Source: Pseudomonas frederiksbergensis (GTDB lineage Bacteria > Pseudomonadota > Gammaproteobacteria > Pseudomonadales > Pseudomonadaceae). From it: a stretch of DNA of 64,000 nucleotides. A model generated the notes under the pieces. The model was not told where the DNA came from, did no database searches, and saw nothing but the letters and a program-made list of their open reading frames with translations. Numbering within the stretch: the first letter of the stretch is position 1; every line of letters starts with the position of its first letter. This document shows positions 12,846 to 23,022 of the stretch, piece by piece. The stretch covers positions 1-64,000 of the forward strand of contig NZ_MOBM01000012.1 of NCBI RefSeq assembly GCF_003732275.1, written 5' to 3'. The position numbers and the translations under genes are program-made.

Positions 12846-12940
12846 TTCGCGAGCAAGCCCGCTCCCACATTGGATCTGTTTTCAGACCCAATTCTCGTTC
12901 ACGACACAAAACTACTGTGGGAGCGAGCCTGCTCGCGATG
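12846..12940. repeat. REPIN, GTGGGAGCGAGC family
   Basis: Inverted arms TTCGCGAGC...CCCACA (about 12846-12869) and TGTGGGAGC...GCGATGG (from 12916) flank a short unrelated middle. The left arm has the GCAAGCCCGC variant and the right arm GAGCCTGC. It sits downstream of soxR. Confidence 0.85.
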
Positions 12941-13540: not shown

Positions 13541-13894
13541 GGACTTCAGTGTCTGATCCGGCCTCATCGCGAGCAGGCTCGCTCCCACAGTTGATCGGTG
13601 TTGAACGCACATTATGTGTACGCCGCCGATCCAGTGTGGGAGCGAGCCTGCTCGCGATGGGGTCATTGCATTCAACTTCAATGTCGACTGTCAGGCCCCA
13701 TTCACGAGCAAACCCTCCCAAGACAGAAACACGAAACATTTACTTTCATATCCCCTTTCGGGATTTCCGATGCTCATACGTCTTATTTAGATGCAGTCGG
13801 TCGCGTAGGCAAAAGCCACGGCCGGACTTTTTACGGAGCGCAACGCTGGGAAGCCCACAGCAGCGCTCCTCTCATCGAAACAAGACCTTTAATC
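13541..13894. other. Gap before fpvG: REPIN and leader
   Basis: Besides the REPIN, this gap holds about 235 bases of fpvG leader. It contains a small hairpin ATCCC-ctttc-GGGAT (about 13750-13764). I found no perfect PvdS box. The best candidate, TTATT at 13783-13787 followed 16 bases later by CGT at 13804-13806, has two mismatches in the -35 element and is not claimed. Confidence 0.55.
13566..13658. repeat. REPIN, GTGGGAGCGAGC family
   Basis: Two perfect 24-bp inverted arms, ATCGCGAGC...CCCACA (13566-13589) and its complement (13635-13658), with a 45-base spacer. Confidence 0.9.
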
Positions 13895-16575: not shown

Positions 16576-17505
16576 ATGCCTAGTTCATCTCAACGTCAGT
16601 CCTTTTTTCGCCTGCTGCTGGTCGGCCTGTTTGCCTGTTTGCTGACACCTTTGGCCAGTGCAGACGAAGCCAAGCGCCTGCGAATTGGTATCACCCTGCA
16701 CCCTTATTACAGTTACGTGGCGAACATCGTCGGCGACAAGGCCGAAGTGGTGCCGCTGATCCCGGCCGGTTTCAACCCCCATGCCTACGAGCCGCGGGCC
16801 GAAGACATCAAACGCATCAGCGCTCTGGACGTGGTCGTGCTCAACGGTGTGGGCCATGACGACTTCGCCGACCGCATGATCGCCGCCAGCGAAACCCCGA
16901 ACATCAAGGTGATCGAAGCCAACGAAAACGTGCCCCTGCTGGCCGCAACCGGTGTTGCTGCCCGCGGTGCCGGCAAGGTGGTCAACCCGCACACATTCCT
17001 GTCGATCAGCGCTTCCATTGCCCAGATCAACAACATCGCCCGGGAACTGGGCAAGCTCGACCCGGCCAATGCCAAAACCTATACACAAAACGCCCGCGCC
17101 TATGGCAAACGCCTGCGGCAGATGCGCGCCGACGCCCTGGCAAAACTCACCCAGGCGCCGAACGCCGAGCTGCGCGTGGCCACGGTGCATGCCGCCTACG
17201 ACTATTTGCTGCGCGAGTTTGGCCTGGAAGTGACTGCCGTGGTCGAGCCGGCCCACGGTATTGAACCGAGCCCTAGCCAGCTGAAAAAGACCATCGATCA
17301 ACTGCGGGAACTGGACGTGAAGGTGATCTTCTCGGAGATGGATTTCCCGTCCACTTACGTCGAGACCATCCAGCGTGAATCCGGGGTGAAGCTGTACCCG
17401 CTGTCACACATTTCCTATGGCGAATACACCGCCGACAAGTACGAAAAAGAAATGACCGGCAACCTCAACACCGTGGTCCGGGCGATTCAGGAGTCCGGCG
17501 CATGA
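16576..17505 (+). CDS. fpvC: Periplasmic metal-binding protein FpvC (ZnuA/TroA fold)
   Basis: A 309-residue cluster A-1 solute-binding protein with a signal peptide ending near ASADEA. Metal-ligand regions are present: HPYYSYVANIVGD, FNPHAYEPRAEDI, VNPHTFLS, and the C-terminal FSEMDFPSTYVE. It looks like a zinc or manganese binding protein, but in the fpv operon it is the FpvC (PA2407) Fe2+ chaperone. The start at 16576 opens the signal peptide; a TTG at 16537 overlapping the fpvK stop is also possible. Confidence 0.82.
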   Translation: MPSSSQRQSFFRLLLVGLFACLLTPLASADEAKRLRIGITLHPYYSYVANIVGDKAEVVPLIPAGFNPHAYEPRAEDIKRISALDVVVLNGVGHDDFADRMIAASETPNIKVIEANENVPLLAATGVAARGAGKVVNPHTFLSISASIAQINNIARELGKLDPANAKTYTQNARAYGKRLRQMRADALAKLTQAPNAELRVATVHAAYDYLLREFGLEVTAVVEPAHGIEPSPSQLKKTIDQLRELDVKVIFSEMDFPSTYVETIQRESGVKLYPLSHISYGEYTADKYEKEMTGNLNTVVRAIQESGA

Positions 17506-18350
17506 CGGCTCAAGAAACCATCAGCCCGACCACCCCCGAGTCCCCTGTGGGAGCGAGCCTGCTCGCGAAAGCGTCCCGTCAGTCAACATCATCGTTAAAT
17601 GACACACCGCATTCGCGAGCAGGCTCACTCCCACAGGTTTCGGGGCCGACCCTGGATTTCGCCGAGGTCAGCCTGACGCTGGGTCGCACGACGATCCTCG
17701 ACAAGGTGACCTTTCAGATTCAGCCCGGCAGCGTGCATGCACTGGTCGGTCCTAACGGTGGCGGCAAGAGTTCGCTGATCAAGACCCTGCTGGGGCAAAT
17801 GCCGCATCAGGGTCGCCTGAGCCTGCAATGGCCAGGTGAACCGGGGACCATCGGCTACGTGCCCCAGGCGCTGGAGTTCGATCGCGGTTTACCGATGACT
17901 GTCGATGACTTCATGGCCGCCATGTGTCAGCGACGCCCGGCATTCCTCGGGTTGAGCAAGCATTATGCAGCGGCGATCGCTGAAGCGCTGGAGCGGGTCG
18001 GCATGCAGGACAAGCGCAAGCGGCGCATGGGCGCCCTCTCCGGCGGTGAGCGTCAGCGTGTTTTGTTGGCCCAGGGATTGATTCCGTCGCCGCAACTGCT
18101 GGTGCTCGACGAACCGATGTCAGCCCTCGATGAGGCCGGCATTCAGGTGTTCGAACGGCTGCTGGGCGACTGGCGCCAGAGCGGCATCACCGTGCTGTGG
18201 ATCGAGCATGATCTGGAAGCGGTCGGGCGTCTGGCGGACCGGGTTACCGGCCTCAATCGCTGGGTGCTGTTCGATGCCACGCCGAAACAGGCACTGACCC
18301 CGGAGCGACTGCTGACCCTGTTCTCGACCCATCCCCGGAGCGCTGCCTGA
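17502..18350 (+). CDS. fpvD: ABC transporter ATPase FpvD with a translated REPIN near its N terminus
   Basis: A 282-residue ABC ATPase. Walker A GPNGGGKSS, Q-loop VPQALEF, signature LSGGERQR, Walker B LLVLDEPMSALDE and the H-loop in WIEHDLE are all intact. Its ATG overlaps the fpvC stop (ATGA). Codons 15-45 are a complete REP pair, so about 30 residues (PVGASLLAKA...HSRAGSLPQ) of repeat-derived sequence sit between the start and the first conserved strand (LDFAEVSLTLG). The insert is exactly 90 bases, so the frame is kept. No alternative start after the insert leaves a full nucleotide-binding domain. It is the partner of FpvE. Confidence 0.87.
   Translation: MTAQETISPTTPESPVGASLLAKASRQSTSSLNDTPHSRAGSLPQVSGPTLDFAEVSLTLGRTTILDKVTFQIQPGSVHALVGPNGGGKSSLIKTLLGQMPHQGRLSLQWPGEPGTIGYVPQALEFDRGLPMTVDDFMAAMCQRRPAFLGLSKHYAAAIAEALERVGMQDKRKRRMGALSGGERQRVLLAQGLIPSPQLLVLDEPMSALDEAGIQVFERLLGDWRQSGITVLWIEHDLEAVGRLADRVTGLNRWVLFDATPKQALTPERLLTLFSTHPRSAA
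17546..17635. repeat. REPIN inside fpvD coding sequence
   Basis: Arms TGTGGGAGCGAG... (17546-17569) and its complement (17612-17635) pair over 24 bp with one mismatch (CTCACTC for CTCGCTC). Total length is 90 bases, a multiple of three, with no in-frame stop. Confidence 0.92.
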
Positions 18351-19249
18351 TGAGCTATGAAGCCTTTCGATTGATGGTCCAGGGATGGGCCTCGTCGGGT
18401 TACCTGCCGGAAGCACTGGCCTATGGTTTTGTGGTCAACGCCCTGCTCGCCGGGCTGTTGATCGGCCCGGTGCTGGGCGGCTTGGGTACGCTGGTGGTGG
18501 TCAAGCGTTTCGCGTTTTTCTCCGAAGCCGTGGGTCACGCGGCACTGACCGGCGTGGCCATAGGCATTCTGCTCGGTGAACCCTACACCGGGCCTTATGG
18601 CAGCCTGTTCGGTTACTGCCTGCTGTTCGGCATTCTGCTCAACTATTTACGCAACCGTACGGGGCTGGCGCCGGATACTTTGATCGGTGTGTTTCTCTCC
18701 GTATCATTGGCGCTGGGTGCGAGCCTGCTGCTGATTCTGGCCGGCAAGATCAACGTACACATTCTGGAAAACGTGCTGTTCGGTTCGGTGCTGACGGTCA
18801 ACGGCAATGACCTGCTGGTGTTGGCCATCGTTGGTTCGCTGGTGATGGCGCTGGCTCTGCCGCTGTACAACCGCATCATGCTCGCCAGTTTCAATCCGCA
18901 ATTGGCGGCGGTACGCGGTGTGGCGGTGAAGACCCTGGATTATCTGTTCGTGATTCTGGTGACCCTGATCACGGTGGCGGCGGTGAAAGTCATCGGCGCG
19001 ATTCTGGTCGGCGCCCTATTGGTAATTCCAGCAGCGGCCGCGCGCTTGCTCAGCCAGTCGCTGAAGGGTTTCTTCTGGTGTTCGGTGCTGATTGCCACGG
19101 TGAGCACGCTGTGCGGAATTCTCGCGCCGATTGTCTTTGACCTGCCTATCCCCTCCGGTGCCGCGATCATTTTGGTGGCCGGTATCGCCTTCGCTCTGGC
19201 CGCCATAGCTCGCGGCATCGTTCCAAGTCTGAAAGGGAACCTCGGATAA
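18350..19249 (+). CDS. fpvE: Metal ABC transporter permease FpvE
   Basis: A 299-residue ZnuB/TroC-family permease with eight or so hydrophobic segments and the family stretch KRFAFFSEAVGHAALTGVA near residue 50. The ATG shares its A with the fpvD stop codon. With FpvC, FpvD and FpvF it is thought to handle Fe2+ released from pyoverdine, carrying it across the inner membrane. The family also includes zinc and manganese permeases; the operon decides the assignment. Confidence 0.85.
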   Translation: MSYEAFRLMVQGWASSGYLPEALAYGFVVNALLAGLLIGPVLGGLGTLVVVKRFAFFSEAVGHAALTGVAIGILLGEPYTGPYGSLFGYCLLFGILLNYLRNRTGLAPDTLIGVFLSVSLALGASLLLILAGKINVHILENVLFGSVLTVNGNDLLVLAIVGSLVMALALPLYNRIMLASFNPQLAAVRGVAVKTLDYLFVILVTLITVAAVKVIGAILVGALLVIPAAAARLLSQSLKGFFWCSVLIATVSTLCGILAPIVFDLPIPSGAAIILVAGIAFALAAIARGIVPSLKGNLG

Positions 19250-20221
19250 ATGTCTTTTTCTCTGCGTCAATTGACCCTGGCGGTGACCGTGTGTGTGCCA
19301 GCCTCCTTCAACGCATTCGCCACCGACACCTTCGAACCGATGCGTCTGATGGCCAATCACGGTGTGGGTAACACCGCGCTCTTCGCCTCGACTTCCACTC
19401 AAAAAGTGCTGGTCCTGGCGGCGTTGCCTGTGACCTACGGTCTGGGTGCCCTGCTGCTGGAGGGTACCGATGTCAGCCTTGAGCGCGCCGCACCGGCCAA
19501 CCTGCCAGGCAGTCGGCAGACCGCTTACTTCACCGGCCGTGGTGCTCCGGCGCTAAGTAAGCTGGCGATCGACGCCGATGCGGTCATCGGCCTGCGCTCA
19601 CTGTGGCCGGACGATCCGCTGTACCCGAACGCCCGTCGCAGCAATATCCGCATCATTGAAATCGACGCCGCCCGCCCGGTGGACGGCGCACTGCCCGGCA
19701 TCGCCGTGAAGCCTGGCAGCAAGGTTGACGGTTTGAACAGTCAGCCTTGGTTGGCCAGTAATAACATGGGGCGCATGGCGGATGTGATGGCGGCAGACCT
19801 GATGCGCTTGGCCCCAGCGGCGAAACCGAAGATCGACGCCAACCTGGCAGCGCTCAAACAGCGCCTGCTCAAGCTCAGCGCCGACAGCGAGTCACGGTTG
19901 GCGAATGCCGACAATCTGAGCGTGATGAGCCTGAGCGATCATTTCAGCTACCTGATCGGCGGCCTCAACCTGGAGCTGATTGGCCTTGATGCACGACCGG
20001 ATGCCGAATGGACACCGCAGGCGCTCAAACAACTGGGTGCGACGCTCAAGGGCAATGATGTGGCGGTGGTGTTGCATCATCGCCAGCCGTCGGACCCGGT
20101 GAAAGCGGTGATTGCCGAGGCTGGCAGCCGGCTGGTGGTGTTGAGTGTCGATGCGGCGGATCCGGTGGCCGAACTGGAAGGGAATGTGGATTTGGTGATC
20201 AAGGGGTTGAGCGGGGTGTAA
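19250..20221 (+). CDS. fpvF: Periplasmic binding protein FpvF
   Basis: A 323-residue periplasmic solute-binding protein with a signal peptide cut near FNAFA. It begins directly after the fpvE stop. The mature part is a second cluster A-1-like binding protein but lacks the full set of His ligands seen in FpvC. P. aeruginosa FpvF (PA2410) binds ferri-pyoverdine and interacts with FpvC. This is the last gene of the operon; a REPIN and a bidirectional terminator follow. Confidence 0.8.
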   Translation: MSFSLRQLTLAVTVCVPASFNAFATDTFEPMRLMANHGVGNTALFASTSTQKVLVLAALPVTYGLGALLLEGTDVSLERAAPANLPGSRQTAYFTGRGAPALSKLAIDADAVIGLRSLWPDDPLYPNARRSNIRIIEIDAARPVDGALPGIAVKPGSKVDGLNSQPWLASNNMGRMADVMAADLMRLAPAAKPKIDANLAALKQRLLKLSADSESRLANADNLSVMSLSDHFSYLIGGLNLELIGLDARPDAEWTPQALKQLGATLKGNDVAVVLHHRQPSDPVKAVIAEAGSRLVVLSVDAADPVAELEGNVDLVIKGLSGV

Positions 20222-20246: not shown

Positions 20247-20339
20247 ATCGCGAGCAGGCTCGCTCCCACAGTGGATTTGTGCCGATCACAGACTCTGTGA
20301 TCGCCACCGATCAAATGTGGGAGCGAGCCTGCTCGCGAT
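20247..20339. repeat. REPIN with extra central hairpin
   Basis: 24-bp arms (20247-20270 and 20316-20339) are perfect complements. The middle carries its own perfect 8-bp stem GATCACAG-act-CTGTGATC (20284-20302). Confidence 0.9.
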
Positions 20340-22930: not shown

Positions 22931-23022
22931 ATCGCGAGCAGGCTCGCTCCCACAGTGGTTTTGTGTTGATCACAGAACCTGTGGCTACCCCGACCAAATG
23001 TGGGAGCGAGCCTGCTCGCGAT
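22931..23022. repeat. REPIN, GTGGGAGCGAGC family, with nearby remnant
   Basis: 24-bp arms at 22931-22954 and 22999-23022. A solitary fragment, ATGTGGGAGCAACTG, lies just before it (about 22884-22898) and looks like a decayed arm. Together they fill most of the gap between the GNAT and sensor-kinase genes. Confidence 0.87.

Follow-up and report, generated by a model that had tools for sequence, protein, structure and literature searches.

Gene content of the fpv region and anatomy of the REPIN in fpvD

The 64,000-nt stretch of Pseudomonas DNA analysed here (the window) contains an fpv-type iron-transport cluster, identified by comparing its gene order with that given in the excerpts of PMC6954188 drawn on here. 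The fpv names follow gene order alone because an NCBIfam scan gave no family above cut-off for FpvC, FpvD or FpvE; three other scanned ORFs had no match. The genes all lie on the forward strand. The first, fpvC (16576–17505, starting at ATG 16576, with a longer TTG start also present in the ORF list), encodes a metal-type periplasmic binding protein with a below-cut-off match to an AztC/MntC-like family. It is followed by fpvD (17502–18350), an ABC ATPase ORF of 282 residues with a Pfam ABC_tran domain at residues 66–206, by the permease gene fpvE (18350–19249; AztB-like, again below cut-off), and by fpvF (19250–20221), a second binding protein that is named by position only and found no NCBIfam match. 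Taken together, the Pfam and NCBIfam domain matches fit a putative metal ABC transporter. The stop codon of fpvC and the start codon of fpvD overlap as ATGA, and a Shine–Dalgarno sequence, AGGAG (17489–17493, forward strand), ends 8 nt before the fpvD ATG.

An inverted-repeat search and REP motif matches confirm that a complete REPIN of 90 nt lies inside fpvD at 17546–17635, where an earlier note on this DNA had placed it, extending from the last base of codon 15 into codon 45. The 5′ REP arm (17546–17569, forward strand; alignment columns 1–24) matches the genome-wide REP motif exactly and encodes VGASLLAK (residues 16–23), while the 3′ arm (17612–17635) is an inverted copy with one mismatch to the motif and encodes SRAGSLPQ (residues 38–45). 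Between the arms as drawn lies a spacer of 42 nt (17570–17611), to which one base of each arm was added to give the 44-nt spacer of the spacer comparisons below. The full inverted repeat, which is also the RNA hairpin, spans 17544–17637, with 17544–17587 being 82% complementary to 17594–17637.

The repeat matches the Pseudomonas REP family, and its REP unit is present in high copy in its own genome: at up to two mismatches the motif has 1491 matches and a reversed control pattern has none, although 1491 is an inflated count as contig C1 looks like an inverted duplication. REPIN places on that contig occur in mirror pairs with coordinates summing to 1421355, probably as an assembly artefact, and the assembly has a listed contamination of 9.64. 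The same genome holds three Y1_Tnp matches, one of which (C2:334850–335146) is a RAYT-like Y1 transposase with REP matches on both sides, the flanking REP pairs being of the same type as the fpvD copy; the other two have no REP within the locus. The fpvD copy is thus an inverted REP pair with a short spacer, foldable as one hairpin, drawn from a high-copy family in a genome that has a Y1 transposase with REPs beside it, but it is not extragenic. We still call it a REPIN on its anatomy because REPINs are usually but not always extragenic, exceptions being on record (PMC3116915, PMC3733652, in the parts of each used here).

Elsewhere in 464 kb of the same contig there are 28 other REPINs in the same orientation, 22 of them equal in length to the fpvD copy, five shorter by one base and one by three. 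A census of these 464 kb counted 63 REP units, 28 of which fall within some mechanically called ORF of at least 100 aa (43 ORFs), and a Pfam scan of seven of the 43 REP-containing ORFs found domains in FpvD and in one KdpA ORF, where the REP precedes the domain. The description of a gene interior as an unusual place for a REPIN fits both this partial census and Pseudomonas fluorescens SBW25, whose REPINs are described in the sections of PMC3116915 drawn on here as primarily extragenic, with 14 of 1067 REP 16-mers overlapping genes.

Reading frame and start codon

The 282-residue ORF runs through the repeat, which is a multiple of three without an in-frame stop, as the earlier note had stated. 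The note further stated that no usable start lies beyond the repeat; in the window copy the in-frame ATG, GTG or TTG codons before the conserved core are ATG 17502 and a single GTG within the 5′ arm. The choice of the ATG that overlaps the fpvC stop is borne out by conservation, as AGGAG within 20 nt together with ATGA is found in 61 of 62 insert-bearing loci and in 47 of 48 others, and insert-free homologues have the same start codon and then lead straight into the first strand.

Among 60 insert-bearing loci the REPIN is 90 bases long in 45 and 105 bases long in 13, the longer copies containing a 15-base module within one arm, and two copies (L048 and L061) are too decayed and were left unmeasured. 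All 58 measured in-gene copies are multiples of three, and the frame is kept in 61 of 62. In L062 (genome G034) the frame is broken by a stop in the repeat and by two indels of one base each around it; a sequencing error is possible or the gene is broken, the assembly being listed as 95% complete. In L067 (G046), which has a shortened trace of the repeat, the frame of the fpvD core does not match that of the usual ATG and offers no ATG, GTG or TTG of its own; this could be a broken gene, an unusual start or a sequence error. The conserved start, its use by empty homologues and the 90- and 105-base copies all argue for about 30 repeat-derived residues in frame in FpvD, as originally proposed, and we infer that FpvD is translated through the REPIN in vivo.

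Distribution and descent of the insertion

A search of the genus matched 303 of 398 Pseudomonas genomes, of which the best-scoring 110 loci were studied, such that more diverged insert-bearing loci could be missed. Among the 109 of these best-scoring fpvD loci that were classified, 62 have the REPIN and with it the repeat-derived N-terminal residues, six have traces, and 41 have neither, showing a short N-terminus behind the same start. This comparison excludes the case in which the same extension occurs in all homologues without REP-like DNA, which the earlier note had named as contrary to its reading. The trace class, shortened or gapped, consists of L067–L070, L085 and L092, the repeat region of L092 being a run of N. 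The one unplaced locus is L110 (G351): its fpvC-to-fpvD junction could not be located, about 970 bases separating the ATPase core from the frame stop assigned to fpvC. Among the names on records that are identical to insert-bearing loci are P. farris, P. frederiksbergensis, P. migulae, P. umsongensis and P. botevensis.

In a midpoint-rooted tree of the locus, built from fpvC, the core of fpvD and the sequence that follows, a group of 86 rows with support 96 holds all 62 insert loci, the six traces and 18 empty loci, and the presence or absence of the insert requires about 10 changes on this tree. FpvD residue 4 is linked to the insert, being K or R in 57 of 62 insert alleles, K in all six traces and neither in any of the 41 empty alleles; it is Q in the window copy and in L005. 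These patterns suggest one insertion allele with later recombination of empty alleles between species, and several gains are possible. The in-gene insertion is most likely old and has been kept across dozens of Pseudomonas species (at least 62).

The spacer of the window copy is 0.95–0.98 identical to the spacers of its three nearest in-gene relatives, versus 0.70 at best to equal-length spacers among the 28 other REPINs of its own genome. The in-gene spacer has 44 bases in all 57 cases recovered, and most of those checked have a close in-gene relative. By this comparison the fpvD copy behaves as one orthologous locus, and its spacer is, as far as sequence comparison goes, vertically inherited. 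In L041 (G254) a segment from the end of fpvC to the start of fpvD, REPIN included, is present as two tandem copies that differ in their spacers and are both of the genome's dominant arm type, which suggests recombination between two alleles rather than plain duplication.

REP arms and the resident REP population

Four REP types were counted in the 62 insert-bearing genomes, the comparison below using types A and B only and dropping 11 of 62 loci for the 5′ arm and 16 of 62 for the 3′ arm, where module M (see below) or other changes make the type positions unreadable. B-like in-gene 5′ arms are found in nine of 15 B-dominant versus one of 36 A-dominant genomes (two-by-two table 9, 1; 6, 35), and B-like 3′ arms in 10 of 15 versus one of 31 (10, 1; 5, 30). 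A PGLS regression of in-gene base on genome REP frequency, which fits binary states with a linear model, covered six arm columns (three pairs, 46–61 rows each; the GTAGG test had 61 rows, L041 missing) and gave p-values of 9e-8 and 1e-12 for columns 11 and 80, 3e-9 and 3e-7 for columns 14 and 77, and 3e-5 and 0.011 for columns 4 and 87. The in-gene copy is itself part of the genome REP counts, a point of importance only where a genome has few REPs. The stricter independent-pairs test gave a mean of 5.0 to 0.5 for the 5′ arm (median p 0.22, not significant) and of 6.1 to 0 for the 3′ arm (median p 0.03, a modest result). The association is incomplete: the 15 B-dominant genomes keep an A-like 5′ arm in six cases and a non-B 3′ arm in five, and at columns 11 and 80 the 40 loci with both arms scored comprise 28 that are A-like in both, seven that are B in both and five that are mixed, the existence of mixed arms making stepwise mutation possible.

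The sharpest pair is L035 and copy 1 of L041: one of 44 spacer bases differs between them, but none of the four type positions agrees, and the A:B counts are 356:1 for the genome of L035 and 41:1013 for that of L041. At the protein level the change of type reads as VGASLL to VGAGLL and AGSLPQ to ASPLPQ. The window's own in-gene copy keeps CGCGAA, whereas most copies examined in its own genome read CGCGAT, so that any conversion would have to be short. In general, then, the in-gene arms tend in a statistical sense to follow the genome's common REP type while the spacer stays put.

Module M (15 bases, GGTGCGACGATTCGAC-like) follows another pattern. It lies in one REP arm of 13 of the 58 measured copies (L004, L010, L013, L023, L031, L033, L036, L050–L052, L054, L055 and L058), on either side and once inverted (L058), and part of it is present in L067. 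It is common in the fpvD copy and rare genome-wide, with 0–59 exact copies in 25 genomes, and the genomes that carry it in fpvD are not clearly rich in M, which simple sampling from the resident REPs does not explain.

Rates of change also differ between the parts of the gene. Over 59 insert-bearing sequences (L033, L041 and L062 were left out), the fpvD core has dS 0.653, dN 0.04 and dN/dS 0.06, the spacer dS 0.56, dN 0.36 and dN/dS 0.64, and the two arms dS 0.158 and 0.199 with dN 0.07 and 0.16. This pattern implies that the spacer residues matter little, that the frame matters, and that the nucleotide sequence of the arms is held more constant than their coding role requires.

Proposed explanation: a tolerated insertion edited by its own repeat family

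The explanation that we favour, and think probable, is that the insertion is old, tolerated and translated, and that its arms undergo concerted evolution with the REPs of the same genome, probably through conversion of short tracts. The REPIN would have inserted in frame, probably once, in the ancestor of a large Pseudomonas clade, at a variable linker between the FpvD start codon and the first beta strand, and would most likely have been translated ever since as an unstructured tail of some 30 residues. Selection on the transporter would remove most frameshifts and stops and care little about the residues themselves. The REP arms, meanwhile, would be kept and would switch type in concert with each genome's REP population, the most probable route being short-tract conversion or RAYT-associated strand exchange at REPs, such that when the dominant REP type changes the FpvD residues would change along with it.

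Conversion of single arms by resident REPs would account at once for the conservation of the arms, their agreement with each other, their tracking of the genome and the untouched spacer. With tracts of about 20 bases, long-tract recombination would be a less likely route than a process specific to REPs, for example template switching or strand exchange associated with a RAYT. Counting against the explanation as a whole are the mixed arms, the B-dominant genomes with non-B arms, the CGCGAA of the window copy, the genome-wide rarity of module M, the roughly 10 presence–absence changes on the locus tree, and the broken frames of L062 and L067. The fuller claim, in which a selfish-repeat population edits a host protein in place by converting it arm by arm to the resident type, leaving the spacer, while the host mainly polices the frame, is one that we advance more tentatively, at slightly under an even chance.

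Competing explanations

The main rival, which we consider rather unlikely on its own and which may work together with conversion, holds that the hairpin is a selected mRNA element behind fpvC, the arms being kept by selection on pairing. By analogy, such an element could protect the upstream fpvC mRNA or slow early fpvD translation, yielding a high ratio of FpvC to FpvDE. The model for this is the REP between malE and malF, a stabiliser of mRNA, the mark of which would be a changed ratio of upstream to downstream transcript. The fpvD hairpin sits between binding-protein and ATPase genes, it is very stable (−104.8 kcal/mol for the RNA fold of 17480–17670, z −10.4 versus shuffles), and the dS of the arms is far below that of the core. 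Over 45 equal-length copies, 94% of cells are paired and 24 cells are changed on both sides versus 9.3 in shuffles, a value that none of 500 shuffles reached; however, the five pairs with both-side changes were matched by 99 of 500 shuffles, and in both counts the shuffles ignore relatedness. Moreover, pairing selection alone does not predict that arm type follows genome REP type, the hairpin has been lost or shortened in L067–L070 and L085 and eroded in L026, L033, L048 and L061, and it falls in a presumably translated stretch.

The earlier note also placed the hairpin just after the start codon and held that it could damp FpvD translation. The strength of the fold stands, but its position does not, as it begins at nucleotide 43 of the fpvD ORF. 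The usual initiation footprint reaches about +19, short of the hairpin, so that elongation or the decay of the mRNA would be the likelier step to be affected, if any; damping of translation is a possible outcome.

A second rival, a hot spot at which entire REPINs insert or are replaced time and again so that each copy reflects the current family, is improbable. In its favour stands the intergenic REPIN directly 3′ of fpvF (20247–20339), which served as a comparison site and where several unlike spacers among relatives mark a possible turnover hot spot. Two or more REP matches occur at alignable sites of 20 relatives in four of six cases at 12848, six of 11 at 13568, 14 of 20 at 20247 and eight of 17 at 22931, as compared with 17 of 20 at the fpvD site, these genomes having been chosen for having the fpvD copy. 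The 13 REPINs extracted at 20247 have spacers of 19–47 bases and of several unlike kinds, with some near-matches (L213 resembles the window, L217 equals L220, and L225 resembles L226), while the single REPIN extracted at 22931 (L216) has a spacer resembling that of the window. Judged from these spacers, intergenic REPINs can sometimes be inherited too, among close relatives, and stability is greater for the copy in fpvD than for the closest intergenic one, at 20247. Also in favour of this rival are the in-gene spacers of L011 and L049, which have no close in-gene relative and reach only 0.77 and 0.68 identity to their best in-gene match. Against replacement of whole elements stand the close in-gene relatives of most spacers, their uniform length, the linkage of residue 4 with the insert, and near-identical spacers that nonetheless have differing arms between loci.

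Domestication of the extension for protein function is less probable still: its long retention would be expected, but the spacer residues are only weakly constrained, empty and deleted alleles persist in the same clade, and residues 1–44 are not confidently folded in a structure prediction that is a poor model overall (mean pLDDT 52.5). Least probable of all is a downstream start that would leave the repeat as 5′ untranslated sequence, as Di Nocera et al. suspect of many N-terminal REPs in the portions of PMC3733652 consulted. Some ATG, GTG or TTG occurs between six codons before the core start and 10 codons beyond it in 28 of 62 loci, in 21 of which it is TTG only, but the other 34 of 62 lack any such codon, and the conserved Shine–Dalgarno and ATGA, the shared start of empty homologues and the lengths of all measured copies, each a multiple of three, argue for the upstream ATG.

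Significance and relation to known repeats

REPINs are commonly regarded as extragenic, and there is no settled account of what keeps the copies in one genome similar. In the fpvD copy the spacer reports descent and the arms report homogenisation, which makes conversion, re-insertion and selection separable. If the explanation favoured here is true, the state of a repeat population would determine residues of a conserved transporter, and under the fuller claim the orthologous fpvD copy would offer a natural means of observing how REPs convert one another. In 1988 Higgins and colleagues reportedly asked whether REPs evolve by gene conversion; what is added here is comparative evidence at one orthologous copy inside coding sequence. 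While in-gene REPs were already known, the age of the insertion, its wide sharing and the tracking of genome REP type by its arms were not anticipated by the earlier note, and a search of titles and abstract openings in mostly open-access literature found no account of the fpvD REPIN or of arm tracking in a coding copy.

The closest relatives by description are the REPINs of SBW25 (PMC3116915, as represented in the sections used), which likewise comprise two inverted REPs and a spacer, a high-copy REP family and a RAYT-like gene; the fpvD copy differs from them in lying inside an ORF and in being one orthologous copy common to many species. Di Nocera et al. (2013; PMC3733652, in the excerpts drawn on here) describe intragenic GTAG and CGTC REPs, whose dimers and groups encode 20–30 residues. 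Like the fpvD REPIN these occur inside genes, with N-terminal cases noted, many of which are suspected to be non-coding. Unlike the present analysis, those excerpts report no tracking of genome REP type and make limited comparison between species. The classic parallel is offered by the Rickettsia palindromic elements (PMC10969869, as outlined in the parts used), which, like the fpvD REPIN, are palindromic repeats in frame in host proteins. The likeness is one of description, as these are longer elements of another family, in another phylum class.
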